NCBI GenBank assembly: GCA_025094145.1
Contig: JALLLS010000107.1
Coordinates: 1-64,000, forward strand
Direction of reading: 5' to 3'
Origin: Spinellus fusiger
Taxonomy: Eukaryota > Mucoromycota > Mucoromycetes > Mucorales > Phycomycetaceae
Length of the DNA: 64,000 nucleotides
Shown here in pieces: positions 1-41,216 of this stretch; the stretch's first letter is position 1, and each line of letters begins with the position of its first letter. Both the position numbers and the translations under genes were made by a program. The notes under the pieces are model-generated. The model did not search any database. It was not told the origin of the DNA and saw only the letters and a list, made by a program, of their open reading frames with translations.

Positions 1-3000
1 ACGGCCCAAGTTCACATCGTGCTTCATAAGACGCATACGACAATCACGCGGCCAGCACTTTTTGTTGTTATAGCCGACAATGTTCTCAAAATTGGGATCA
101 GGATGTTCTGTCAAGTAGCGCTGGATCAAGTCGCGTGCTTCGTCTGCTGTGAACCGGAAGAAGATATGAAGACGGTCAATGTAGCGAGAGTAGAGGCGGA
201 TGGGGTGTCGTGTTTCTGTAGAGACATCACGGTACTGCAAAAAGTCATTGGGCAGTTGAGGAGGACCTGCCATCTCACTGGCCCTGTGAAGACCCAGCAC
301 AAGCAAATCAAGCACAAGACCGTAGTATTGGAAAATGAACGAAGCAAACTGAAGACCACGAATAAGACCGTACGTGTTGACGTGGTTCATGTCCTTGTAG
401 TTCAGCACAACGTTGTTCTTGGCAGTAGCATAATCTGCCAGGTTATGGTCGAGAATAAGACGCAAGAGACGACCGAGAAGAGTAAGATCTACTTTTTCAT
501 AGACACGACTGAACTGAGTCTCCAGCATGACATTGCACTGTCCTTCTGTTGTGTCCCATACTTCTGTCAGATTGTTGATTCCCTGACACCATTTGTACAC
601 CAGCAGGGGTGGGGGTTCAGAATCAGAAGGCTTGATCCAGGCAGGGAAGAGGTGGCGTTTGTCGGCTTCATACCAAAGGTACTGGTCAAGGTAAGCATCT
701 GTGATCTTCTCAAGTGGCTCAATGTCATAGACAGGAATCAGGTGAGAGTACAGATCCATAAACTCAATGCCCACTTCCTTGAAGGCACGCTGAGTCAGCA
801 GCAAACGTTTAATACGCGACAGGGCTTCGTGGGGGTTGTCATAGGCCTGCTCAATCAGACCCAGTTCTTCACGCTGACTCTGGTTCAATCGACCCTGCAC
901 ACTGTAGGCTTCACGAAGACGTTCAAGAGCAAGAATCAGCAGCTTTGTATCGTGTTTGTAGGAGAGAGGAGGAAAGGGAATAGGGGAGAACTTTCTGCTT
1001 TCCAGCCAATGCACTGTGGATGTATAAATAGCGACAGCCTCTTCAGCTGTAATGTAAGGACCATCCTTGAGATAGTTGTGTTGGCGCTCCTGTTCTGCCT
1101 TGAGCCATAGACGGGTCAAACGACCCAAGTTCTTGCGACAAATGGTCTTGTCCACAGTCGCACCACGACGAATACGCTCACGGTTGTAATGGGCCACACT
1201 TGTCCACCAATCTGCCTTGGCTTTAATGTAACGAAGGATCATGTTCTCAATGGGAGTGGGCATGCCAGGGACTTTCCAGGGAATGTTGGCCTTCCATGCT
1301 CTCCATGCTTCTGACAAGTGCTGTAGAATGGTACGGGATTTGTTGCCCTTGATGCCTTCAGGCATGGCATCTGTAATGTCGTGAAGCACAGCGGCTCTCA
1401 GTTCGAGATCGTAGTGAGAGTCCACACGTTGTTTTGTCACTGTCTTTGCAATGCCCTTGGAGTGTCTGCCCTCGAATTGACGGGCGAGCAAGTTGCCCAA
1501 CCAACGTTCGAGCAAGGGCACAATACCGCGCATAAAGAACAGCCATACTCTCCATCCAGGAGCCCAGAAGCCTACACCGGGTCCTTTGCCTACGGGTCCT
1601 GTGTTGAAGCGGTAGTCTAATGGTAGGATGCATGTCAGTTATCCAAGACTTTCTATGGTGTTGATAGAAAGAAAGAAAGAAAGATCTCAAAAAGATATAC
1701 TTACAGATCAAATGCTTTAAATCCTTGCACATACGAATCTGTCGCATCAGACGGTACTTGTATCTGTACATGCCTGTCAATTGTCCAACATGAGAAAAGA
1801 TGTACTGTAATCCATCGGCCAGTTGGAACGCATCGACATTGCCCAACCGATACTGGACATGGGAGTCGACAATCAGTTTTGTAAGACGAAGGATTTCTCT
1901 GCACAAGTGAAAGGCGTTACCGAACCGAGACTTTTTTCTTTCCTTGGTGGTCAGTGTCTTGACGGGCTTCAAGTTAAAGTTGTAGTCCAAGTGAAGGTAG
2001 TTGAGGTTTTTACGATGAATCAACAAATTCAACATGTTGTAGCCCTGTCGACACACCTGAAGACCTGCCTCCACCCAATCCAGCTGTGTGGTCTGGAAGA
2101 ACTTGGTGGCCTTTAGACTGCGGAAGAGATACTTTTTATTCAGAGCCTTGGGGGCACGGTGTTTGAGAGCATTCAATACATAGCACTTGAGCAGTTTTTG
2201 GTAAGACACACGCACTTTGACAGGCTGGTTAGGGGGACAATGTTCAAGGTACCAGTTCTTGACCAGGGGAATGTCCTGAGCACGTCTTGTCTGGCCTGAT
2301 CGCTTGTCATAAGGATGGGGTGCCCAGTAGAGAGCAATGGCATGGGATGTATTGTCTGTGTAGAGCTCTGTGCTATCGAGAAAGGGAGTGATGTGTTCGG
2401 GTAGACTGAATCCAGTCAAATCTTCCTCACCGTCCTCACCAAAGATGGAGTCCTCGTGTTGCTTTCCCGACAGGACAATGGTACGGGATGAGATGGGATT
2501 GACAATGGGATCAAAGTAAAAGGCAGGCAGATCAGGGTCTTCTGAGCGCACATACACCACAATGGGGTAGTGGTACCATGCTACACGCACACTGCGAGGT
2601 AGGGAGTTGTAGAGGAATGGAAATGCGATCTTGTATTCTGTACGTACAGGTTGACGGATGATGATCTTGTTGATGTCATTGAACTCATTCCAGTCTTCAT
2701 CGGATGTGTCAATGTCACGGAACAGAGGCTCAAACTTGGGTCCACCGGGAATAGCCATGCTGAGTGCCTTTGCTGTGAAGAAGGAGTTGAGGTCGAAGAG
2801 ATAAAAGTAGTTCTTGTCGTTCATGTCTGATAGCAATTGGTGGGCGAGACGGTAGAGAGTGGACATGATGGGAAGATCAAGACGCCACTTTCTGTAGGTG
2901 GTGCCATTGACGTGTTTTGTATCCAAGAGTGGCTTTGGATCATAGAACCAGTCATACACAGCGGCATCTTCCTCCTCGTCCATTTCCATTTGAATTGCCT

Positions 3001-3622
3001 CGAGGGGTTCTACATCCATAATATTGTCGCCATAGTCCAGGGGAGGTTCCTCATCATCAAAGGGAGGGAATCTCATACGCTTAAAGTGACGTCTGTCTCT
3101 CTTCTCTCTTCGCATCATGATCCACATGGTTCCCCACTGGGCAATGTACACAGGCTCAATGACCCATGGGATTTCATTGACAAAGGTGATGGCACCTGTG
3201 ATGTGATAGAGAACCGACACTTCTCTCACTTGCTCCCAGGGCATGGGCATGTTCTCCAGTAGCTTAAGGACAGCATGGGGAACATACTTGAGTGCACCCA
3301 GGTAAATGCGTTTGTCGTGTCGGAACTTTTTGGCAGACATGTCGCCGTGGTCTTTGATGATTTTACGCAGGTGTTCGGGTGGCATGTCGACTTTTTCGTG
3401 TTCAACAAACCCAAACTTGCGCTTGGAGCCATACCGTTTGTTTTGAAGTTGCTGCCATTTCTTTGCCTTGTCTTGAAGGCGTTCTTCGTAGCTTTTGCCA
3501 GGCTGTTCCTGGTTTGTGTCGTACGCGTACTGGCCGTAGTAGGGCTGTCCTGGCGCAGAGTACATGGACGTACCAGCATGAGGCATGGTAAAATCCTCGT
3601 TGTGGGTTGGATCACTCCTCAT
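1..3622 (-). CDS. PRP8: Pre-mRNA splicing factor Prp8, N-terminal half (3' part outside window)
   Basis: Core U5 snRNP scaffold that holds the spliceosome active site. Exon 1 runs 3622..1705 and exon 2 from 1616 to the window edge; the 88-bp intron (GTAAGT donor, TTAG acceptor) joins ..KHLI to [10 protein letters not shown] exactly as in other Prp8 proteins. The 1178 codons here cover about half of the usual ~2,300-2,400 residues: acidic/Pro start, PRO8NT-like region ([22 protein letters not shown]), PROCN region and the stretch to [12 protein letters not shown], the last residues visible. The RNase H-like and Jab1/MPN domains must lie left of coordinate 1. The start is the ATG at 3622 ([10 protein letters not shown]); the ATG at 3586 (MPHAG) is an equally reasonable alternative. 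It is transcribed divergently from the NIPA gene at 4012. Near-universal sequence conservation makes the call very secure. Confidence 0.97.
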
Positions 3623-4011
3623 GATACGATGAAGAGACAAGAAAAATATTCTTAGTCCAGGACCATTCCACACCACACCACACCACTGCGGTGCTGTGAC
3701 TGTGACTGTGAATCCTCTACGTCACACGTTTGAGAGGGGAGGGCAAAGGTGTGTCGCTCCTTCCCAAGGGAAAAGAAGGGAAGTCTGTCTTGACTGATTT
3801 TGAGGGTGTACAGAGAGAAACCCTCTTTTTTATTTTTTATTTTATTTCCGTCTCCTTTTTTGTCTCTTTTTTTGTCTCCTTTTTTGTCTCTCTCTCTCTC
3901 TATTGAGTAGATTTGATTTATGCACAATGGATATGTACACGTGACATGGTGTCTCCTATGTAGAGTTCACTAGTGCTTCCTTTCTACCTTTTTTTTTTTT
4001 CCCTTCCTCTT
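3623..4011. promoter_or_regulatory. Divergent promoter region between PRP8 and NIPA-family gene
   Basis: The 389 bp between the two divergent start codons contain long pyrimidine tracts and one CACGTGAC at 3938-3945. This matches the RTCACRTG consensus (reverse complement) bound by Cbf1/bHLH factors in fungi. The motif is seen directly; binding and shared regulation are inferred. No clear TATA box was identified. Confidence 0.35.
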
Positions 4012-15369: not shown

Positions 15370-15964
15370 TACACACCAGGAGATTTTTCTGGCCTTTAAG
15401 CGATGATATCTTCGCCCTTTAAAACCAAAGATTTCTTGCCTTTTATGGGCCTGTGTTTAAAATAAAAGGTTTGCGGATATCAAAAATATTATTTCCTTTT
15501 GTAGTATACCTCACTATCAAATTATATTATCAATAGAATATACTGTTTATGGATAAAATTGTTTATTGTAATAGTATAGCTAATACTATAGTATGACTAT
15601 AGCTACTGCCCAAGTGCATTCCCTCATAGCAATAGAATCCACACCCTAAAAGCTTTGAGCTTTATCCTTGGGAGATAGATAAATATGCTCAGGAGTATAC
15701 CCTAGACAGCCTAGACACCTTAGACAGTATAGAAGGAAAAAGACCACTTGAGACTGACTTGAGAAAGAGTCTTTACTTGCCTAATAACAGAAGAGTGTAT
15801 TAGTAATAATTCAATAAGAGAGATAGTATGCTTACCTTGTACTTAATACTTGTCTTGAGAATAATGAGTCATATATCATCTATTAGAAGAAGAGTCAGTG
15901 CTATGTCTTGTGGATTGTAATGAGCTCAAGCCCAGATGAAAGGCTCTTCTAACAGTTACTCTTA

Positions 15965-16136
15965 TTTTTGTTCTCAAGATCTGCCACACTTATAACATAA
16001 ATATCCTCACTGAGGTATTAGTGAATTTCAACACTATCCGCGCTTGCCAAAGTTATGGAATTGTTTGGAACAGAGATGTGAATGCATCAAAGAATATCTA
16101 TACAATTGCAGAAGAGGGATTAAATGTTCGCTACTG
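15965..16136 (+). pseudogene. Fanzor (eukaryotic TnpB-like nuclease), C-terminal zinc-ribbon/RuvC-III exon remnant
   Basis: After an acceptor TCAAG the frame reads ICHTYNINILTEV, then CQSYGIVWNRDVNASKNI and stops at 16134. The WNRDVNASKNI block is the hallmark RuvC-III motif of TnpB/Fanzor proteins, with the Cys pairs of the OrfB zinc ribbon just before it. One zinc-ligand Cys is lost here (CHTY against CHTC in the 30-kb copy), so this copy is inactive besides being truncated. Fanzors are known eukaryotic RNA-guided DNA nucleases found in fungal transposons. Confidence 0.72.
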
Positions 16137-16375
16137 ACCAGTTCCATTCTGTCGAGAAGCATAGATACTCTTTGATGCATTCATATCATATATCGCCACA
16201 TCGAAAGTGGTTTCCTTCGGGATTCAGATATTTACAGGTAAATCTACATAATAATCTTTATTTAAGAACTAACATGAATATATTTCACTTTTTTTGCTCC
16301 TTTTCAAATCCATGTCATTTCTAAACAATTGTAGTTTGACTATTTCCTTTTATATCCTAAAGACCTCCTGGTGTG
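16130..16375 (+). ncRNA. Candidate guide (omega-like) RNA region at the right end of Fanzor element F1
   Basis: The roughly 245 bp from the Fanzor stop to the element boundary are non-coding. They stay clearly alignable with 30300-30530 (reverse strand), although the protein part has decayed. A short hairpin (CCAC..GTGG, near 16187-16210) is kept in both copies with changes confined to the loop. In TnpB/Fanzor systems the guide RNA scaffold overlaps this end. Transcription is not shown; this is inference from position and conservation. Confidence 0.35.
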
Positions 16376-16377
16376 TA

Positions 16378-16903: not shown

Positions 16904-16905
16904 TA

Positions 16906-18129
16906 CACACTAGAAGATTTTTCTGGCCTTTAAGCGATGATATCTCCTTCCTTTTACATCGTTGAATAAACGCACGTTTTATGGGCCTGTGTTTAAAATC
17001 AAAAGGTTTGCAAGTATCCAAATATTTATTTCTTTTTGTAGTATACCTCACTATCAAATTATATTATCAATAGAATATACTGTTTATGGATAAAATTGTT
17101 TATTGTAATAGTATAGCTAATACTATAGTATGACTATAGCTACTGCCCAAGTGCATTCCCTCATATCAATAGAATCCATACCCTAAAGGTCTTGTGCTTT
17201 ATTCTTGGGAGATAGATAACTATGTTCAGGAGTATACCCTAGACATTATTGACCTTGTAGAAGACCACCTAAGACTGACTTGAAAGTAGTCTTTACTTGC
17301 CTAATAACAATGCATTGAATGTGTTGTACATTAGAGTAGCCATAGCCCAGATAAAGACATTGCTTACCCTTTTTACTTCTAAAATAGCCTTTGTTGGTGT
17401 CTATCACTTCCTTTTATTGTTTCTCTTTGTTAATAATAGTAGATTACCTTGTTTATTTATGCTCATCTTGACGAGTACTTAAATATCAAGTTGTATGGAC
17501 AGTCTAGGAAATAACAAGAGGGGAATATCAAAACAAATAATAATCTTTCTTTCTCTATTCTGGTGAAGTGTGCACTAGCCTCCACTCATAAAATCCACAA
17601 GTCAAACAATTCACACTCTAATTTCCTTGAGCCTAAGTGACAGTATTAGAAACAATACTTTATAATCATTAAGCACCACTGTTAATAACAGTTACAATAA
17701 GATAATTGAGGTGATTATAGATAGTGAGTCAATAAATAAATACAATGTTCTTAATATAAGTAAAATTAGTTCTATTTTATGGACAATAACCTCTAGAGTT
17801 AATTCAGTGTGTGTCTTATAATAAACATCTTTCTTAAGCAGTGTTATACTGCAAATACTGAGCATATAGATAACACATTATGTTAAACAATAGATGCAGT
17901 GACTGAGTTGTAATATTAAGTGGATTCTGGTTCTATTTCTTGTCTTTACAGCCAATTCTATACTTTTAAATTGCAAAGTCAATCATCATTGCTTAAACAG
18001 GCAAGTAGAGTTTAAAAATGACCATTTAGACATCGAAAAGGCATTTTTAAACACATGAGCCAATCATAAGAATATTGTAATCTCATTCTCAGGATAATTC
18101 CTTATATATTCCAAAAATCTCCTGGTGTG
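16906..18129 (+). mobile_element. TA-flanked transposon copy F2 (decayed, no transposase or Fanzor left)
   Basis: Same family as F1. TA at 16904-05 and 18130-31; left end CACACTAGAAG then ATTTTTCTGGCCTTTAAGCG; right end on minus CACACCAGGAG then ATTTTTGGAATATATAAGG. The first ~380 bp parallel F1 closely, including TATACCTCACTATCAAATT. The rest diverges and encodes nothing recognisable. Some inner sequence (17340-17480) recurs inverted at 58.77-58.88 kb. Confidence 0.65.
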
Positions 18130-18131
18130 TA

Positions 18132-27047: not shown

Positions 27048-27296
27048 GGTAAAGAAGTAAGAATAGGCTCATGCAGGAAGGAACAAGTCCTCTTTTATCC
27101 ATAAGAATTAACTATGACGTAGATGAGTCGTCACACTCATCATAAGCATAGAACAGGACTAGAGAAGTGAGTGGCCTTCCAAAAGAATCAACAAGGCAAG
27201 GACACTTCACCCCCATCCCTCCACTTCCTTATGAGTGAGTGCGGGTGTCCAACGATTTCCTCTTTTGTAAGTAAATCAGTGTGTGGCTGTTATCTA

Positions 27297-27958
27297 CACA
27301 CCAGGAGATTTTTCTGGTCTTTAAGCGGTGATATCTCCTTCCTTTCTAGATGAGCTAAATTTTGCCCTTTTATGGAACTGTATTTAAAATCAAAAGATCC
27401 GCGGATATCCAAATTATTATTTCCTTTTGTGGATACCTCAATATCAGATTGTATTATCAATAGAATATATTGTTTATGGATCAAATTGTTTATTATAATA
27501 ATATAGCTAATAATACTGTAGCTAATACTATTGTCGTGATGTCACTTTCCTTTTATAGATAATAACATCTTTATTGAAGAAGCCAACTGGGAAAAGAAAG
27601 GTGAACAGTTGAAATTAGACTAAAGGATAGCTCGCCCTGAAGATGTAATTATTATATCATAAGTTTAGCAGAAGTAGTGCGTAGAAACAGTATAAAAGAA
27701 GTAAGCAATTGAATGAATAAAGAACAGAGTTCTACTACACGTTTAACTGTTCGGATTTCCTTTGATACCTAAGATCAAAGACGACAATATTCTATTGATA
27801 ATACAATTTGATATTGAGGTATCCACAAAAGGAAATAATAATTTGGATATCCGCGGATCTTTTGATTTTAAATACAGTTCCATAAAAGGGCAAAATTTAG
27901 CTCATCTAGAAAGGAAGGAGATATCACCGCTTAAAGACCAGAAAAATCTCCTGGTGTG
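27297..27958. mobile_element. 662-bp foldback element F3 with ~170-bp inverted repeats
   Basis: Non-autonomous copy of the CACACCAGGAG family. Both ends are type A and the arms (27297-~27469 and ~27788-27958) are near-identical inverted repeats with a single mismatch seen, flanked by TA (27295-96, 27959-60). The ~320-bp centre encodes nothing. Arms contain GATCCGCGGATATCC, a nested palindrome. The element resembles a mariner-type MITE formed by head-to-head joining of left ends. Confidence 0.85.
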
Positions 27959-27960
27959 TA

Positions 27961-29096: not shown

Positions 29097-30196
29097 TTAA
29101 GCAGTCTTGGCACTCTTAGTAGGCTTGGTGGCCTTGGTGTTCACACTAACCACACCACTCTTGGGCTTCTTGTACTTGTTTTCTGGCAAGTATTTAGTGG
29201 GTCTTGGTCCTCTTACTGCCTTGGGACGAACTGCCTTGAAAGGAACAATAGTAGAGCTGAATTGGGTGATAGCCTTCAAGTAATCCTTATTGTTTTGGTT
29301 GGCAATATCCAAGTATTTCTTTTAAAGGAAAACAAAACAAGGGAAAGGGTACTCTCTGTCAGTTTCCCACTATGTCCACCTCGAATGTCTACTTTACCTG
29401 CTTCTCCTCAATGGTCATCTTTTTGTATACTTCAGCAGCCTCCTTTGTCTGATCAGGCATTCTTACGCCCTTGAGTCTTTCTTTGTTATTACCCAACCAC
29501 TGGGCAAAGAAGATCAAATAGGCATTGGTGGGTCTCTTGGGTAATTGAGGATCTCTGATGGTCTCCAACTTGTACTTTTTTCTTAACAAGTTCTCATCGT
29601 AAATCTGCTGACTGGTAGCATTGGCCAATGCCTCTTCAAATAGAAAATCGTGTTTCTTAGATTCCTCGGCGAATCTTGTGTGGTAGACCTACAAGCCCAT
29701 TCACAGACACACAGACACAATCTTAGTACATAATATATATACAAAAACACAGAGAGAAAGAGAGAAAGAGAGAAAGAGAGAAAGAGAGAGACAAGCAGTG
29801 TGTTCTCTTTATCAAGAGCATAATAAAACACATGTTTACCTGTCTCTCAGCGTCTGTTAGCATGTTCCATTTAGGAGCAATAGTATTCTTCATAGCGTCA
29901 GCAATCTTTTGCTTGGGTTCGTTTGTCTCCTGATTTAGGACCTCGCGGCAGTACAATTGCCATGCAGAACGGGGTCTGACAGGCACCTCAGAAAAGACTA
30001 TCTGTCTGTCAATATTCACTACAACCGCTGTCTTTCTTTCTTTCTTTCTCTATCTTTTTTACGCGTAGATACAAGCACTCCAACACTTACTACTGGTGAA
30101 TCTCTTGGGGTGAAGACTGCGCACATTCATGTAGGTACGCACAGAGACAGCATTGCTCGGTTGGAGGGTGAGTTTGGTGAACAAAGGCAACAACAT
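29097..30196 (-). CDS. Mitochondrial two-HMG-box DNA-binding protein (TFAM/Abf2-like)
   Basis: 258-aa protein in four exons: 30196-30091, 29997-29840, 29688-29398, 29318-29097 (777 nt). Exon 1 encodes a presequence-like N-terminus (MLLPLFTKLTLQPSNAVSVR, then YMNVRSLHPKRFTS): hydrophobic/Ser/Arg-rich with no acidic residue, as expected for mitochondrial import. HMG box 1 begins RPRSAWQLYCREVLNQ with IAPKWNMLTDAERQVYH; box 2 begins LPKRPTNAYLIFFAQWL with YKKMTIEEKQKYLDIA. The tail is Lys-rich (KPKSGVVSVNTKATKPTKSA). Two boxes plus a presequence match Abf2/TFAM nucleoid-packaging proteins. It ends 134 bp from the convergent STEEP1-family gene. A nuclear HMG protein is the alternative if exon 1 is wrong. 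Confidence 0.8.
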
Positions 30197-30299
30197 AACG
30201 AGAAGAATAAGTGAAAGGAAGTGCTGGCTTAGCTAGACGTAATTTGTATGTACATGTGACGTGTATAGGACTGTCAAACACGAGTGATACACACCAGGA

Positions 30300-30530
30300 G
30301 ATCTTTAGGATATAAAAGGAAATAGTCGAAATACCATTGTTTAAAAATGACATCGATTTGAAAAGGAGCAAAAATAGAGTGAAATGTATTCATGTTAGTT
30401 TTAAAACAAATAAAAACTATGTAGATTTACCTATAAATATCTAAATCTTATAGGAAACCACTTTCAATGTGGTGATATAGTAAAATATGAATACAAATAT
30501 ATATTCTTTTCTACAGAATAGAACTGGTCA
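30300..30530 (-). ncRNA. Candidate guide (omega-like) RNA region of Fanzor element F4
   Basis: Non-coding block between the Fanzor stop and the element end, alignable throughout with F1 (16130-16375). Shared: TTTAGGATATAAAAGGAAAT, TTGAAAAGGAGCAAAAA, TATTCATGTTAGTT and the CCACTTTC[AG]ATGTGG hairpin. Position matches where TnpB/Fanzor guide scaffolds are encoded. No expression evidence; inference only. Confidence 0.35.
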
Positions 30531-31100
30531 GTGAAGACCCTTTAATCCCTCTTCTACAACTGTATAGATATTCTTTGATGCATTCACATCTCTGTTCCAA
30601 ACAATTCCATAACTTTGGCAAGCGCGGATAGTGTTGAAATTCACTAATACCTCGGTGAGGTTGTTTGTGTTACAAGTGTGGCAGATCTTGAGAAAAATAA
30701 TAATAAAACAGAGTAACTGTTAAAAGAGCTTTTCATATTGGGTAAGAGGTCAATCATGTTTACCTTTGATGTAAGGAGCTCATCGACATCAACCATAAGA
30801 AGATCTCTATCTTCTTGTCTATTTTTCAATGATTGATATAATATTCTTGTCAAACCAACACGATGACCTTTAAACTTGATAGCATCCTTTTCTTTCATTC
30901 CTGTGCCATAAGCAACGACTGGCAGTTTGGTTGGATCATACTCCAATATTCTTAGGTGCCAATACCCCTTTTTAATAATAAAATGATAGTAAAAATAATT
31001 AGTTCGAGATGTATTAATGTACTCTCTATGTGTGTGTCGTATTACCCTCGCACTGGCACCTTCTTCTTGTCTTTGCCTCTGTAACAGATTTACTGCGTTT
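30520..31100 (-). pseudogene. Fanzor C-terminal half (RuvC-II and RuvC-III/zinc ribbon)
   Basis: Minus-strand exons: about 31096-31047 (QRQRQEEGASAR), about 30970-30766 (GYWHLRILEYDPTK, AYGTGMKEKDAIKFKGHRVG, LMVDVDELLTSK) and 30690-30524. The last, after acceptor CTCAAG, reads ICHTCNTNNLTEV, CQSYGIVWNRDVNASKNI and stops after the EEGLKG region. AYGxGMxxKD..K.KGHR.G..., the Glu of VDVDELLTSK followed by CHTC, and WNRDVNAS are the RuvC-II, zinc-ribbon and RuvC-III signatures of Fanzor1 proteins. Zinc Cys residues are intact here. The N-terminal half and RuvC-I Asp were not found upstream, so the gene is incomplete. Exon limits are approximate. Confidence 0.75.
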
Positions 31101-31690
31101 ATTATAGTAAAAGAATATACAATAGAAACTGACTAACATGTCAGACATAATAAACATGCACAAACACTTACCAGATCACAACTGTTGGTTTATATGCCAG
31201 ACAAAGGTAAACAAAATAAAAAGGATAGAAGTTATGAAGAACAACAGTCAGTGTGGTTGGCAGGTATTAATATCTGAACAGAAGATAACAAAACGAAATT
31301 TCACAAGTCATTTGCTTAATCAAAAATACCAAAGTAATGCAGATTACAACAACATTTTAGAAAGAAAAAAAATTCCTTAAAGAACAGTTGCCTAGTTACC
31401 CGTTGTGATCAAATCGTGTGTTGTGTTCCTGTTCATGTATCCTTTTTGATTTCCCTAGACTAGCCTTTGTATCTAAACCTCTATTTTTTTGTCCCTGCTA
31501 GAGACCAAACTACTACAGATCTATCTCTCTAGTGGTATTGTTGATAACCACAGTGCCCTTTATTGCAGAATAAAAGATATATTTTACAAAGTTACATAGT
31601 ATATATCTTGAGGCTACTTATATACATATCTTTTTAAACTATAAGGATCAAAACTATACGATAATAAAATCTCAGTAAATTCATAAATGG
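31100..31690. other. AT-rich spacer
   Basis: Probably decayed interior of the Fanzor element plus unknown sequence. No frame with recognisable similarity. Confidence 0.4.
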
Positions 31691-31699
31691 ATTTCTTTT

Positions 31700-32450
31700 T
31701 CTTGTCCTATGTATATTTCAGGGGAGAGAGAAACCTTCACATTTACAACAATACCATTGATTCAGCGGTGAAGCCTCCTTTGAAAGAAAGAAAAATAGCA
31801 TAGAGGTAAGGCTTCAGTGGGTCCGTGAGTACGTTAGTTAAACCCATAAGCAGTGATGTGAGGTTGTTTGGTTGGATGAGTCCAGAGTGGAGCTCATGAG
31901 CTTTGACAGGTAATAAAAGTCATCAGGCAGTATGGTACGGCCTTTGAGCCCAATAATGTCCTAAGAACAAGGAAGTTTGGAGGTGGTGGAGTGATGGTAT
32001 AGGCTGATTCAGTGAGGAAGGTGTTGAGATATGGGTTATAGTGGAAGGTAGGATAGACTTCAACAAGTACATCAATGTCTTGGGAGAAGTCTACTGCTAT
32101 GAACTCAAACATCTCTCTCTCTCTCTCTCTTATACCCTGGAGTCAGTCACTGCCTACAGAAGAACAATGCTAGATCCTATACGAGTAAGACAACTCGAGA
32201 ATGGAAGGTAGTAAATGGTATCATAATGACTATTTACTAGTCATTAAAATACTGATCTCAATCGAATTGAGTATCTGTGGACTCAAATCATGAGGATCAT
32301 CAGGAAGGACAAATTATTCCATCAAACAGAGGTTGGAGGCGGTCCTGATGCTAGAGTAAGATAAAACATCAAAGGAAGTAATAGGCACCTTCATTGCCAG
32401 CATGGGGTGGAGATACCAGACTGTAATAGATGTAAAAGACTAGCAGTGGT
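31700..32450 (+). pseudogene. Tc1-like transposase relic
   Basis: Frameshifted plus-strand remnants in several frames: SRVELMSF, IKVIRQYGTAFEPNNVLRTR, KFGGGGVMV, EGRIDFNKYINVLGE and, later, DLNRIEYLWTQI-like sequence around 32250-32290. Block order (DES.., GG.VMVWG, DLNPIE.LW) is that of Tc1/mariner DDE transposases. Many stops; no intact ends found. Confidence 0.65.
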
Positions 32451-32640
32451 TACTAAGTGGACTTGTAATAAAAACCACTTTTTTGTATTATCAATACAAT
32501 TACATGTATCTATCGAAGGTTTTATGTCTTTATCTAATAAATTCGTGAAGTTATAACACTATTAAGAAAAGTATAAATCTAATAAAAAATTTTACATTTG
32601 AAGTAAAGTGGTTACTGATTAAGGGTCACTTTACATTGAT

Positions 32641-33849: not shown

Positions 33850-35060
33850 CAGTGGGAGAACAAAAAAATTGGCAATTTTTTTAAAAAGAAATACGATTGA
33901 TTTCATATCATCAATACAGTGTTTTTCTTGTGTCAAGAGAAATATAATGTATTTTCTACTTTAATAAAGCCTATGATATGTTAAAGAAAGGCTCTAGAAT
34001 ACTTATATGTAATTTATTTTTACAATAACATTTAAAGACTACTACAAATTTAGCTTCAATAATGCGTACTCCCACCCTTGTTCTTGATGACTTATTGCAT
34101 TCGTACTGGCATTGTCTCAATCAAAGAATTCCATGTTTTTGGCTCAAAAAAACCCCAAGTTTCTTGAATTATGGTTTTGAGATTGTCCATCTTGAAAAAA
34201 CCGTTGCATCTCTCCTGGACCTTGTTTTTCATTTGCATCCAAAGGTTTTCAATGGGGTTCAAATCGGGTGATTGAGCAGGCCACTCTAAACTATCAATTC
34301 TTCTCTCCATTTTCCAATCACTTGCTACAATACTTTTGTGAGTGGGTGCTCCATCTTTCATCAATATCAAGTGGCACTCTAGATCCTAGAAACGTAGCAA
34401 TGACTCTATAGACTTTATTGACAAAATCAACAGCCTTTCGTTCATCCTTCTCAAGCATCACTAGTTCTGACTTTTCACCATGACGAATAGCTCCCCAGAC
34501 CATGACTGAGGATCTTCCACTCTTGAATGTGGGAGCAAGACAATATTTTTTGTAAGCTTCTCCATCCTTACGCCAAACCTGAACCACTCGACTGTTCTTG
34601 CCAATTTCGAAACTACTTTCGTCAGTCCATATAACTTTTTTCCACATGTCAATGGTCTAGTGGAGATGTTCTTTGGCAAACTTGAGTCTTCTTTCTTGAT
34701 GTGTTTCATTCAAAAAAGGTTTTTTCTTTGCCACTCGGCTCAATATACCCTCTTTATGCAGTACACGTCTAATAGTGTGCTTGCTGCATTCTTCAGGTAT
34801 TGCTGCAACTATTTCACTTAAAGTCATTTGTCTGTTCTTGCCAATAACTTTCAGAAGGTGTTGTATTCCTCTTTCATTGAATATTTTGGGTCTTCCCGAA
34901 CCCTCTTGGCGTTTAGTAGTTCCTCTTGTCTTCTGTTGATTTAGAACATTGTAGATTGTTCTCCGCTTTACTCCAGTTCTTTCAGCTATTTCCTTTACTT
35001 TCATATTTGCTTGTCAAAAATTACCAATGGTAAGTTTTTGATCGTCTGCTAGTTACATTG
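33850..35060 (-). mobile_element. Tc1/mariner-like element, near-complete
   Basis: Left end CAGTGGGAGAAC after TA (33848-49). The right end is uncertain: a weakly matching subterminal TTGGTAATTTTT sits near 35020 and a TA near 35060. It carries the transposase at 34092-35004 on the minus strand. Inserted between the two halves of an IS630-like transposase relic. Confidence 0.55.
34092..35004 (-). pseudogene. Tc1-like transposase with one nonsense codon and one frameshift
   Basis: From ATG 35004: helix-turn-helix region (MKVKEIAERTGVKRRTIYNV, GSGRPKIF, HTIRRVLHKEGI). A TAG at 34659-34657 interrupts it; the same frame then resumes as WTDESSFEIGK, KSGRSSVMVWGAIRHG. Near 34385 the frame shifts to LMKDGAPTHKS, WPAQSPDLNPIENLW. 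The Asp of WTDE, Asp of MKDGA and Glu of NPIE form the DDE triad, so the catalytic residues are still present. With only two disabling changes, loss is fairly recent. Confidence 0.82.
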
Positions 35061-35640: not shown

Positions 35641-35886
35641 GCAATGCAATTACATTTAGAGAAGCTAAAATTGGATAAGACATTCAATATCATTCTTTTA
35701 ACGTTGTATAGATAAATAAAGGAGTCTTTAAAGTTATTAACAATAAGCTAAGCAAAATAGTATAGTATGCATCTCTTTTAGAAGAGAATATATCTTTTTT
35801 AGATGGTTTCTTTCTTTGTTTCACATATATTGCCTGTAGACCCTGAAAAGATGTCGTCATTTCCATCTCCATGGGTTAATTTTGAT
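35641..35886. other. AT-rich spacer before the LINE
   Basis: No gene. Ends with the LINE target-site duplication at 35887-35902. Confidence 0.5.
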
Positions 35887-35953
35887 ACAATCTCCAACTC
35901 TCCAGCATTTAATCACCATCATATATCGCCACCACACAAGCATTTTTTTTGAC

Positions 35954-36859
35954 ATGATTGAGAAAACAACGCCATGGAATGGCATTAATAAAAATGTTAC
36001 TGGACCAAGGCCGTTTATTCGTCACCCTAATAAGGCACTTCATATCTTCACGGCTCCTGGCTGTGAGTCTCTTCGCCATGTGGACCCTGTTACGTCTGCA
36101 TGGGCTTGCACAATGCACCCTGAGTGTGTTGTATTCAACTTTGGCAAACAGGCCAAGTCTCAAGACATTGCCCCAGTCTTGATCCACCAACTGGGTGCAG
36201 TGGTTGCAATTACTACACGTTACACCAGAGCCAAGGACCTCATACAAGAGGTCATATTCAAGGACCCTGAGATGCGCCTTAAGGCCACCTCTGAAGGTGT
36301 GTCCTTTAACAACATGAGGGTCGTTGCTTCTGCTGGGCTTGACTCAGACGCCAACCTGGTAAAGTTCAACCTATACCAGATCCCCAGTTGCCACCCCAAG
36401 AGAGATTTGCAGGTACCCATTGTCGAGGCATTCCAGCCTTATGGCAAGGTTGTGCACCTTTGTGCTTACGTGGATGAGCACAAGATTTTCCGAGGTGAGG
36501 CCTCAGTTCTTCTGGACATCTCTGATGTGGACAATGTCCAACCCCTTTGCTGCTTTCTCCACCTTGGAGGCTCCATCAGTGCCCCTGTCGAGATCTGTGC
36601 CAAGGGCATCCCACCCTACTGCCGGTACTGCTGCCAGGAAGGGCACCTGAAAAAAGACTGTGAGGTACGTCCTGCTCTTGCTCCCTGCTGCCACACATGT
36701 GGTATAGCTGGCCACAAGGCCAACGATTTGGAATGCCCCTCTCACCCAGAGACCAGGGCTGCTGAAGAGGCCGCTGCAGAACAGCGTGCCAAGGAGATTG
36801 CTGCTGCAGAGGCAGATCGTGCCGCCAAGAAGGCCACCAAAGAGGTAGCTGCTACCACC

Positions 36860-36891
<32 letters not shown>

Positions 36892-37273
36892 CAACGGGGA
36901 TGCCATGGACATGGACATGGACATTGCCCTGACAAAGCAGGTTTTGGAGTCTCTCTCTCAGGAGGAGACTGCCAAATTAAAGGTGTCCATGGAGATGGAC
37001 AGTGAGATGTATGACGCCTCTAACACCAGCACCAGCAACAGTATGTGGGCTCCCCACAACACTGAGCATCGTCTCCGCCTTTGTGAGGCTGTGATTGCCA
37101 TGCGCAGGAACGCCACCACCACCACCAACACCAAATCCATCACCAACACCACCACCAAGACCACTTCCTATGGAACTTGTTCCCAGAAATCTGTGTCTGC
37201 CATTCTTTTGCCTGCTTCTTCCTCCTCTTCTTCCACTGCTGATCCCACCAAGGTCAATGCCATGGAATTATGA
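35954..37273 (+). CDS. LINE ORF1, gag-like protein with two zinc knuckles
   Basis: Uninterrupted 439-codon frame starting at the first ATG inside the element (MIEKTTPWNGINKN). The N-terminal half is a globular RNA-binding-like region; CRYCCQEGHLKKDC and CHTCGIAGHKANDLEC (about residues 216-250) are two CCHC-like knuckles. An Ala/Glu/Lys coiled-coil stretch and Thr/Asn-rich low complexity follow (TTTTTTTNNNNNNN). It likely coats the RNA for retrotransposition. The stop TGA overlaps the ORF2 start as ATGA (37270-37273). Still intact, unlike ORF2. Confidence 0.85.
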
Positions 37274-40200
37274 GTGTTGGCCCTATCCAATTAGGGACCC
37301 TCAATGTGAGAGGGCTCTCCTCACTTGTACATAGTTGTTCTTCTCCTAAGTCACTCCTTATCTGCTATCTTCATTCCCTCTCCCCTCCTCTGTCACTTCT
37401 TGCTTTGCAGGAAACCCATGCCACCCCCAAACACCACTCCTCAACCAACCTTCTCTTCCAAGCCCAGTCTAGTCTATGGACAAAGCACTGTGGCCTTGTC
37501 TCTTTTCACACTCATTTACTACTAACCCACTTGCACACTTCTGCTGATAATAGGATCCTTGCTGTTCAGGTCTCACACACCAAAAACTGCATTGATCCAT
37601 TTATTGTAGTGGTAGTCTATAGACCCACAATATACAGCAAATGCCATCCTTTTTTCCTGTCACTTGTTTTGACACTCACCTCACTTTCTTCCTCAGTCCC
37701 AACATTTGTTCTTGGCGACTTCAATGCCAACCTCCACCAATGCACAGCCTTCACTGGTGAATGGCTAGTGTATCAGCATCAACACTTTCTTGACGCCATC
37801 ACAGCACCACTCTCAGCACCACTACCCACCTTCCACAACAGTCGTTCTTGGACATGCATTGATTACATTCTTTGACCCACCACTATTGCCACTTCTGCAC
37901 CAGAAGTTCTTTTTGTCAACCCAAGTTGGACTGACCATAGTCTGCTTGTAGTTTTGATCTCTCTGTCTTGCCCCTCTGGACCTGGTGTCTGGAGATTCAA
38001 CACGGTGTACCTGGATCACAATGAGTTTGAGGATTTGTTAGTGGATCTGCTAGATTGTGCTTCCTTTCTTCTTCCTGTAGATGTCTCTGCTGGTTGTTGC
38101 TGGGATTTGCTCAAGCAAGCCATCAGGCATCTTTCCTTGGCCTATGCCAAGAAGTATCAACGTCACTGTTGGTCAGTGGAGCGTCAGCTCAACCATACTT
38201 GCACCCAACTTCTTTCTTCATCGCCCTCTCTGGATCTTTCTAGTGTTGAGGCTGACCTTGCCAATTTACAGCAGACCCAAACTGCCAATCTTGCCCAGCG
38301 TGCTGGTGTCAAGTGGTGTGAACAGGGCAAGCAATCCAATTCCTATTTTTTTAGGACTATCAAACAAAGAACAACTGCAAAGTCCATTACCTTGCTTTGG
38401 GATCCTGTTTCTGGTGACCTTTTTTCCTCAATGGCAGATATGCTTGGGCATGCATGCCAATTCTACCAAGACCTGTACACTGAGGACCCCATTGACTTTG
38501 TCTCTGGTGAGTCTTTGCTCAACAACATTCCTTCTTCTGCTCTTTTGTCTGCTTTGTCTTCTGCCTCTCTGCTTGACAAGATTGCTCTTGAAGAGATCCT
38601 GTTTATTTTGAACAATACACCCAGCAACTCGAGCCCTGGTTTGGATGGACTTCCCTATCCCTTGTGGAAAAGGTTGTTCAGACATTCCTTTGTGCAAGAG
38701 TTGGCTCAACAGGTGTATCAGGATGCATTGTTTGGTGTTTTTCCTTCTTCTTGGTTGGAAACGGTGTTGATACTTTTACCAAAGGCTGGTGACCCTTCTC
38801 TTTTGAAGAAATGGCGTCCCATTTCACTTATCAACTGTGATGCTAAGATCTTCACCAAGATCATCACTTTCTCGACTTTGGTTTTGTCTCGGCCCTCTGA
38901 TTACTCCCTATCAAACGGGTTTCATGGCCAATCATTTTATTGCTGGCTGGTTTGCTAACACGCCTTGTTATGCAACATGCCCAATTGGCAAAGGATCCTG
39001 GTGTTGCTCTCTTGCTGGATCAAGAGAAGGTGTACAATTGGGTACATCCAGGGTATCTTTGTTTGGTGCTCTCTCGTTTTGGTTTTCCTGTGGTCTTTGT
39101 GGACACTGTGTGCTTGTTGTTTTTCTCAACCAAGATTCATGTCAATTTGAATGGCTTTGTGTCCTCCCCGTTCCCTCAGGGTTGTGGGTTGCAACAAGGA
39201 GATCCTCTCTCCCCTCTTTTATTTAACCTTGCCTTTGAGCCATTGCTCCGCACCATTCTTGCTTCCTCTTCTCTTTGAGGCTTCTGTTTTGGTGTTCCTC
39301 TGTTGTCCTCTGTTGCTCTTCTGGTTCCGCCTCCTCCCTTGAAGGCATTGGCTTATGCTGATGACCTTCTGGTTTTCCTTTTGTCTCCTGGTGAGCTTGC
39401 TTCTCTTCTTGAGATTCTCTCAGTGTTTGGCCTGGCATCTAATGCTCAGGTCAACCTCAGCAAGACCGTTGCGGTTGCTCTTTCAGGGCATTTCGTTCCC
39501 AACTGGGGTCCTGTGCTGGATGCCTCTGACATATCATGTTGCCATGATAGTCATGCAGTCCATGCTGTCTGTTACCTTGGCTTTCCTCTGTTGTCACACC
39601 CAACCCAGTTGGATCACTTCTGTTTGGCTCTTCTGGAGAAGTTGGAGAGGCAATGCAACATCATGTCACAGCGTCACCTTTCTGTTCAGGGTAAGAGCCT
39701 TGTGGCCAATTCCTTGCTCCTCATCACTCTCTGGCATGTCCTATATGTGACCCCTGCTCCCATCTCTTTCTTTGCTGCTGTCCGTGGACTTGTTTGTGGA
39801 TACCTTAACCTCAGTTTTGGTAGTCCTGGGTGGGATCTGTTGTGCCAACCTCGTAGGCATGGTGGCATTGGTTTGTTAGACCCTGCCAGTCAGCAAAAGG
39901 CTCTCCAATTATGTTGGATCCTTCCTCTCTTAACCAACTCTTCTTCTTTTTCTTCTTCGTCTACTACTACTACTTCTTTTGTACGTAGCTACTTAGATTT
40001 TCTTCTGCCTCTGTACTTCCAAGCACCTTCTGCCTCTGTTGCTCTTCTGTTTCCTTGCCATCTGCGTAACTGTCCGTCTTCTCTGCGCCCAATTCATTGT
40101 GGTTGCTCTTCTTTGCCTGTGTCTTCTCTCCCAATGCATGTTAGTATGGATGCTCTTACCCTGCTAACATTGCCTCTGTCCACTGTTTGGGGTTTCCTTC

Positions 40201-41216
40201 CACCTTTTATTGCACCCAAGCTCAACTTTGCCAAGGTGTTTGTCTTCCACACTTTCGAACTGGATAGCTTTGGTTGTCTATGCCGGAAGCATATTGTGCA
40301 ATTGGGTTTTGCAAAGTATTGCATCCTTTCTTTCTTCCATGCTCTGGACTCTGGGCAAATTGTGCTCTGGCCATGGTTCTTGTCTGACTTTGTGCTGGCA
40401 TCTTCCACCTCTCCACCATCCACTGGCTTTTCTTCTCTTTTGGAGATTATACAAATTAACAAGCAAAGTCTGGTCAAGGCCCACACCTCTTCTCTTTGCC
40501 ACCACTTGCTGCCTCCTTTGTCTTCTCATTCTCCTTCTGCAGTTGTGTGGAAGCGTTTCTGGCATCTTTGGATCCCTCACAACACTTGCACTGTTTGGTG
40601 CAAAGCTCTTTGGGGTTGTTTGCCCACTTGCAGCAGAATGCACCATGTCTTGCCTGTCCAATTTCCTTCTCCCCTTTGCTTGTTCTGTTCTGCTTTGGTA
40701 GAAGACCAGGATCATTTTCTGTTTCTCTGTTCTGGGAAGAGGTGTGTGTGGAGTGTTGTTCTCTCTTGTTGGTGTTGTTACAAATAAGGAAAAATTCTGT
40801 CCCTAGAAGCTAGAGAAGGGAAGATTATTGTCTGTGCATTTTTTATAGAGAATGTTATTGAAAATTAGTCTTGTATCAGACATACCTTAGAAGAAGAAGT
40901 GTATAAGTAGTCTTTGGATTTTGAAGAATTAAGTCTTTGAGAAATATACTTTTACCTACTTAACACACCTCTTGTTTATTTGGGCTTTTGAACAGTGTCC
41001 TTCTTGGCATCTCAAGGATGTCTAATCTTTGCTGTCTTCTTGTTGTCCTCCTTCTCTGCCAGACGCTGACCTTGGTGTTCTGGTTGTGGCCGCTACAGTG
41101 CAGGCAATTTGGCGTGCCCACTGGGCTTTTATTTTTGACTCTGCTCTTTTTCTCCCTGGTGTTGTGGCAAGTAAGGCTTCTTCTTTGGTGGTGGCTCTGC
41201 AGTCCATGGTGTCTTG
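37270..41216 (+). pseudogene. LINE ORF2, endonuclease/reverse transcriptase, disabled
   Basis: Starts at the ATGA overlap. AP-endonuclease part: IQLGTLNVRGL, LLALQETHA, VVVYRPTI, TFVLGDFNANLHQ, then a TGA at 37873-37875, and WTDHSLLVV after it. Reverse transcriptase: NSSPGLDGLPYPLWK, LILLPKAGDPSLLKKWRPIS, TPYQTGFMANHFIA, LDQEKVYNWVHPGYL, PQGCGLQQGDPLSPLLFN, ALAYADDLLVF. Frame changes near 38875 and 38943, a TGA near 39276 and the solo LTR at 40776-40994 break it. The catalytic YADD is intact. C-terminal sequence resumes after the LTR to about 41216. Confidence 0.88.
40776..40994 (+). mobile_element. 219-bp solo LTR with 4-bp target duplication, inserted in LINE ORF2
   Basis: Begins TGTTACAAATAAGG and ends GGGCTTTTGAACA. 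Direct repeats GTGT at 40772-40775 and 40995-40998. A second copy at 44106-44325 has its own 4-bp duplication ATAT, which fixes the ends independently. Too short for coding; interpreted as a solo LTR or short non-autonomous LTR element. Confidence 0.82.

Follow-up and report, generated by a model that had tools for sequence, protein, structure and literature searches.

Short minus-strand exons with the hallmarks of a Fanzor protein, lying beside an apparent transposon end, raise the question of what this fragment of the Spinellus fusiger genome (Mucorales, Phycomycetaceae) is, how it came to be there and whether it belonged to a mobile RNA-guided nuclease system. The locus lies in a stretch of 64,000 nucleotides, called the window here, in which the initial annotation had placed a Fanzor remnant inside a TA-flanked transposon at 30300..31100. 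The features named in that span are present, but its limits require correction: the coding part covers 30528-30964, and the element extends from 30288 as far as ~31762 or beyond (Table 1).

Coding remnant in the window

The three motifs on which that annotation relied, VDVDELLTSK, CHTC and WNRDVNASKNI, were all found in the minus-strand reading frames of 30288-30964, the first of them (30764-30793) supplying the RuvC-II glutamate. After joining of the two exons, the window copy matches PF07282 (Cas12f1-like TNB) with an E-value of 1.5e-10 and 41.5 bits, the cut-off of this model being 26.3 bits, which upholds the assignment as a Fanzor/TnpB remnant and the presence of RuvC-III and TNB zinc-ribbon homology; exon B alone gives E 5.5e-6. 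The same model matches the joined exons of 13 out of 13 copies given, namely 12 picked from a set of 38 for in-frame, open exons, plus the window copy truncated at its stop. The NCBIfam TnpB model gives E 6.2e-7 and 29 bits, which is below its cut-off of 100. Among proteins of known structure (PDB), the best match of a composite joined exon pair is the TnpB-like protein L79 (E 8e-6), the RuvC-II stretch of a composite copy aligning with VNVNEYLTTKTC of L79, and the best match of a profile of 13 copies is LaTranC (E 0.022). No chain named Fanzor occurred among the hits of three sequence queries of the PDB (13, 6 and 4 hits; E up to 1, 10 and 10).

Protein relatives amounted to 74 hits, of which the named ones are from Rhizopus microsporus, Spinellus fusiger, Rhizomucor, Mycotypha, Phycomyces and Backusella; the fungi other than S. 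fusiger in this list we take to be Mucorales. A single-sequence protein search (query padded with X) gave no relative among 78 candidates, and in the viral contigs searched there were 12 pattern matches, none of which was confirmed. Judged by this homology, what remains here of a Fanzor-type protein is its RuvC-II and RuvC-III/TNB portion. The designation Fanzor1, as opposed to Fanzor2, would follow from the fungal relatives, the introns and the TIR/TA context rather than from placement in a tree.

Exon B of the window copy reads ICHTCNTNNLTEVLVNFNTIRACQSYGIVWNRDVNASKNIYTVVEEGLKGLH and then meets a stop. The fourth zinc cysteine is changed, the second CxxC is broken, and a RuvC-I aspartate was not found in this copy. 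Because RuvC-I and the far end of the element are missing, the fourth zinc cysteine is replaced and the frame stops early, the window copy is dead.

Table 1. Positions in the window of the Fanzor-type remnant, its element and related elements.
Feature	Position	Strand	Remarks
TA at element boundary, putative target-site duplication, C-terminal side	30288..30289		Homology start of 29/29 copies
C-terminal-side element end	30290..30330	-	CACACCAGGAGATCTTTAGGATATAAAAGG...; same kind in other fetched copies
Predicted Fanzor exon B	30528..30686	-	CHTC...CQSY zinc ribbon and RuvC-III WNRDVNASKN; premature TGA at 30528-30530
Intron, 77 bp	30687..30763	-	GT-AG ends; GTAAAC...CAAG; splice signals matched in family consensus
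Predicted Fanzor exon A	30764..30964	-	YWHLRILEYDPTKLPVVAYG...VDVDELLTSK with RuvC-II Glu; open; exact 5' edge inferred
3' Fanzor module common to long copies	30288..31074	-	Homology start at ~31069-31075
Apparently fused upstream segment, common to other C-terminal-only copies	31075..31762	-	Homology stops at ~31762; N-terminal-side end missing
Second family member, 1.0 kb	15370..16377	+	Both ends, TA flanks, exon B remnant
Third family member	16904..18131	+	N-terminal-type end and variant C-terminal end
Foldback derivative	27295..27960		N-terminal-type end on both sides; arms of 174 bp, 99.4% alike

Element ends and extent

An element end with TA had been noted beside the Fanzor motifs, and this observation holds: the TA at 30288-30289 is followed by the 14-base end CACACCAGGAGATC (terminus TA-CACACCAGGAG), and homology to the window copy begins at 30285-30290, i.e. 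at this TA, in all 29 fetched copies. The 14-mer has 242 exact occurrences genome-wide versus 0 for the reversed control. It also occurs in locus L069 (3083-3097; C10:66982-66996), where it is followed by unrelated sequence, so it is common to more than one family.

The family possesses two kinds of ends, CACACCAGGAGATCTTTAGGATATAAAAGG on the C-terminal side and CACACCAGGAGATTTTTCTGGCCTTTAAGC on the N-terminal side, which are alike over about the first 13 bases. Both ends were listed for 25 copies, with the N-terminal end doubtful in two (L010 and L032). A size of ~1.39 kb recurs, and a longer class measures 2.0-3.0 kb; to the latter the window copy is homologous up to ~31762, its second (N-terminal-side) end not being found in the adjoining part of the window. 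The search for copies bounded by both ends and TA, suggested with the first reading, returned CACACC-ended, TA-flanked copies with TIRs and a TA duplication, and the window copy is one that keeps a single end.

The foldback element at 27295-27960 has C on one flank only. Other features in the neighbourhood are minus-strand frames at 29097-30049 with mostly weak HMG-box matches (the Fanzor element end lies ~240 bp upstream of them), degenerate repeats at 31843-32589 that are common to L015 and partly to L035, a Tc1/mariner DDE_3 remnant near these repeats (34092-34656, minus strand), and a likely non-LTR retrotransposon on the plus strand (35840-40787), in which a zinc-knuckle-like frame, recognised by reading, precedes a second frame that RVT_1 and zf-RVT match weakly.

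Copies in the Spinellus fusiger genome

A DNA search with the window copy gave at least 42 other matches at 39 other loci, 84-91% identical (43 matches including itself); the count is a lower bound, as the best 40 of 699 candidates were scored. Chance occurrence of the motifs in non-homologous proteins, which had been named as a possible refutation, is contradicted by this result. Places with a TNB exon number at least 150, since the PF07282 profile search yielded 150 matches with 150 of 457 candidates scored. Against such numbers, the idea that the fragment is a separately acquired bacterial TnpB-like gene, or contamination, deserves hardly any credence and is already contradicted: although the TNB domain matches bacterial TnpB/Cas12f models, below cut-offs, the gene has a spliceosomal intron with sites conserved in the family, its best named relatives are fungal, and the same window harbors the N-terminal part of Prp8 (1358-3721, minus strand; PRO8NT 1.2e-88, PROCN 3.1e-116), which marks the contig as eukaryotic.

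Longer copies that include RuvC-I had also been proposed as a check. Profile searches with PF01385 and NF040570 found no RuvC-I match, and a complete absence of RuvC-I from the genome was considered; this was dropped because an exon to which the Spinellus protein P0002 led, read as RuvC-I (FSxCxVDLGxK), has 20 matches at 17 loci (all 29 candidates scored). A Pfam profile search with this exon gave no match; its position and motif suggest that it is RuvC-I, as does BLASTP, which aligns it weakly with P0008 of Rhizomucor (E 0.001). A database relative from S. fusiger matches contig C140 at 98% over residues 110-212. One locus, L158 (C13:409000-412550), appears to have a near-complete domain order, with N-terminal-looking frames, RuvC-I (SLCGVDLGRK), VDEFRT, NRDVNA and the C-terminal-side end in succession. 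In L158 the first CxxC is lost, and an N-terminal-side end was not found in the stretch fetched. Together, the sequences support a resident fungal family of Fanzor elements that transposed in the past.

Origin of the C-terminal-only copies

The long loci L154, L158, L159 (the last fetched in part only for this comparison) and C140 share only the last ~800 bp with the consensus of the C-terminal-only copies, from consensus position 1314-1322 onward. Homology of the window copy to these four loci starts at gene position 726-732, placing the junction near 31069-31075. Upstream of it the long loci differ from the consensus, save for a distant match in C140 (76% over 203 bases; 75% over 201 bases when the window copy is compared); L154 also shares the first 701 consensus bases, which belong to an N-terminal-side end. 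Since the C-terminal-only copies have only this last part in common with the long ones, a single fusion that was then amplified seems to be the simplest reading. Locus L154 (1521-3878, on C1) is a composite of an N-terminal-type end, an internal element end, a 5'-truncated Fanzor and a C-terminal-side end.

Decay, selection and age

The two exons were compared across 38 copies. Private substitutions come close to neutrality (ratio 0.87), and substitutions common to at least five copies show constraint (ratio 0.56, P 0.007). The latter signal is modest, because shared changes in an intron control have a comparable ratio in one of its three frames (0.47, P 0.065). If the short copies lacking RuvC-I encoded a functional stand-alone RuvC-II/III-TNB protein under selection, the synonymous bias of the widely shared substitutions would be expected, as would the length of exon B, kept at 185 bp in 35 of the 38 copies. 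Present-day selection on the short copies is nevertheless unsupported in view of the near-neutral private changes and the in-frame stops in the last two exons of 18/38 copies, including the nearly identical L001 and L002. Moreover, no RuvC domain is known to cut without RuvC-I, and a selected stand-alone protein is very improbable. Just upstream of exon A, positions 961-1440 of the family consensus show a variation of 0.026-0.075 per 60-base bin, a level below that of most other parts of the element, much of the exon sequence among them.

Pairs of copies have a median identity of 0.893 in their last ~0.9 kb. The closest pairs, L001/L002 (0.999) and L003/L004 (0.998), have different flanks, and were considered as products of recent transposition. 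This interpretation is weakened by the extended sequences: the first pair (C141a/C141b) is near 100% identical over ~1.2 kb and 83-90% upstream, and the second (C30/C169) is near 100% identical over ~1.6 kb, followed by 95% and 87.7%. Gene conversion may explain such pairs. L007 and L008 are 98.2% identical along 1.9 kb, and the fetched stretch of this pair shows no break. Because the closest pairs are mosaics, it is exchange between copies that is recent; movement may be so. The initial claim that the genome harbours or harboured active Fanzor transposons therefore stands for past transposition and is less sure for recent activity. Nuclease activity in the family is at most putative, the window copy being dead.

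Candidate transposase and search for an omegaRNA

Ends of the type CACACCAGGAG on both sides of the gene were present in none of the 30 best DDE_3 loci. The DDE_3 gene of L069, just beyond the window, was rejected as partner transposase, its family having other ends. Locus L064 (C115) holds a DDE_3 element of 1.9 kb, whose long TIRs begin with TACACACCCAAAGATTTTTGGGATA. A variant end in L048 opens with the same 23 bases that follow the TA of L064, and CACACCCAAAGAT, likewise present in L064, occurs at one end of the L005 element and at one end of the L029 element. The first 75 bases of L064 have 22 genome matches, many of which do not include the outermost ~20 bases. Judging by these shared termini of variant members, a Tc1/mariner element of this kind may be the mover.

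By analogy with Spizellomyces punctatus, an omegaRNA would be expected at the C-terminal-side end, and according to a 2023 paper the guide RNA scaffold of Fanzor1 includes both TIR and TSD (PMC10711439). The fold search gave no support to this expectation: no conserved RNA fold was detected in the last 267 alignment columns of 38 copies (whole region z -1.27, no window < -2), and Rfam gave nothing in the window at gathering thresholds.

Insertion-site signature

The new observation is that the insertion sites carry a one-sided signature, with TC preceding the TA at the N-terminal-side end. Toward the TA, the N-terminal-side flanks have C at -1 in 58/73, T at -2 in 46/73 and TC in 41/73 cases, versus 35/80, 28/80 and 8/80 for the C-terminal-side flanks (P 6.6e-6 for C and 6.6e-4 for T, Fisher; P 1e-9 for TC). 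Only distinct flanks were counted: recurrences of a 12-base flank were dropped, as were copies without TA at their start and rows with other end types (10 and 16). With only Fanzor-bearing loci, C is found in 21/24 N-terminal and 17/48 C-terminal flanks (P 3.7e-5). A view based on 44 C-terminal flanks, that C at -1 is confined to the N-terminal side, had to be dropped: C reaches 20/36 in a second C-terminal batch, which weakens the asymmetry of C alone, and the 80 flanks show C enriched on both sides of the element, compared with 18.8% C before TA within the window, while TC is strongly one-sided. At the site of copy C141b, which is spanned by ~30 uninterrupted paralogous stretches of 65-76% likeness, many paralogs read TTC-CA-TAAAA and the copy reads TTC-TA-[element]-TA-TAAAA. 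Most paralogs thus have CA where the occupied site has one TA, from which it follows that the TC belongs to the target there and that insertion was at a single dinucleotide.

In S. punctatus, the 5' repeat of SpuFz1 is preceded by CA, and the TAM is CATA (Saito 2023, PMC10432273). Because TC followed by TA resembles this arrangement, TCTA is a candidate TAM for the Spinellus family; in the window copy the TAM side is unreadable, as its N-terminal end is missing. The two element ends differ after about their first 13 bases, and on this basis the asymmetry may instead reflect an orientation-dependent target preference of the transposase, in which case the element is the same dead Fanzor remnant but the Fanzor has no role in copy survival. 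Enrichment of C on both sides agrees with such a preference, and part of the site preference is perhaps the transposase's for this reason; L064 also has C on both flanks, and places with a TNB exon far outnumber those with RuvC-I, the copies lacking RuvC-I still showing the signature. On the other hand, the N-terminal side far exceeds the other in T at -2 and in TC, and the dinucleotide before the 5' repeat in S. punctatus matches its TAM (PMC10432273). Another Tc1 family of the same genome (TACACCTTTTTCGG ends) has C at -1 in 3/33 and TC in 0/33 flanks in a scripted count over all fetched loci. This larger control without C or TC bias makes a pure transposase preference less likely, and we regard it as possible but unlikely.

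Comparison with known Fanzor elements

No published description of this family was found in the open-access literature on Fanzor/Mucorales and Spinellus fusiger. Parasitella parasitica belongs to the order Mucorales. Its PpFz1 is a Fanzor1 of a Mucorales fungus and in this respect akin to the Spinellus protein (Xu 2024, PMC11423790).

The closest description is that of SPu-1/SpuFz1 from S. punctatus. It is a Fanzor1-only element of 2-3 kb with short inverted repeats and putative TA duplications (Bao & Jurka 2013, PMC3627910; PMC10432273), many protein-less or partial 'ghost' copies (42 Fz loci and 134 ghost loci; Saito 2023, PMC10432273) and a dinucleotide conserved before the 5' repeat. Unlike this element, the Spinellus family has TC, not CA, before TA, and it has introns and many C-terminal-only fusions. 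It also has a transposase with partly matching ends, whereas in S. punctatus no transposase flanked by Spu-1 repeats was reported (PMC10432273). Mariner-type Fanzor elements, among them PUl-4, are similar in having Fanzor without a transposase, Mariner-like TIRs and a TA duplication; they are from other hosts and the likeness is one of description (PMC3627910). The same paper describes MCi-2, where variable 5' regions are joined to a constant Fanzor 3' region, but which is without TIRs and has 11-12 bp duplications, and CMe-1A, with about 150 copies in one genome. Families that reach hundreds of copies are mentioned in PMC10711439.

Proposed history and implications

We favour, with some reservation, the explanation that what the window holds is one third of a Fanzor gene, its 3' part, now dead and lying in a truncated TIR transposon, non-autonomous and with TA as its insertion site, that a fusion was amplified and moved in trans, and that TC-TA represents the TAM of the Fanzor. 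The ancestor would have had a full Fanzor (RuvC-I, -II, -III and TNB) and short CACACC inverted repeats, with an omegaRNA running from the C-terminal-side end into flanking DNA as in S. punctatus. Recombination would then have joined the last ~800 bp (the RuvC-II/III exons and the 3' end) to another N-terminal-side end, after which the fused version, devoid of RuvC-I, multiplied. The most likely mover of this version is a Tc1/mariner (DDE_3) transposase that acts in trans through recognition of similar termini. The TC-TA on the N-terminal side would be best explained if copies were kept or multiplied where 5'-TCTA precedes guide-matching sequence. The weakening of the recent-transposition claim makes this explanation less sure.

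A further proposal, which we consider doubtful, is that many Spinellus elements without Fanzor or without RuvC-I supply guide RNAs from dispersed sites to a small number of full-length Fanzors whose TAM is TCTA, a Tc1/mariner transposase moving the elements. If true, the TC on the N-terminal side would be a fossil imprint of RNA-guided transposon retention across a eukaryotic genome. The Spinellus family bears on the benefit that a transposon may draw from its Fanzor. Its related elements number well over 100 and include both long and short copies, and together with the candidate transposase and the one-sided motif they would make it possible to test whether RNA-guided cutting at empty sites aids persistence. 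The family also provides a TAM prediction, TCTA, from natural insertions alone.
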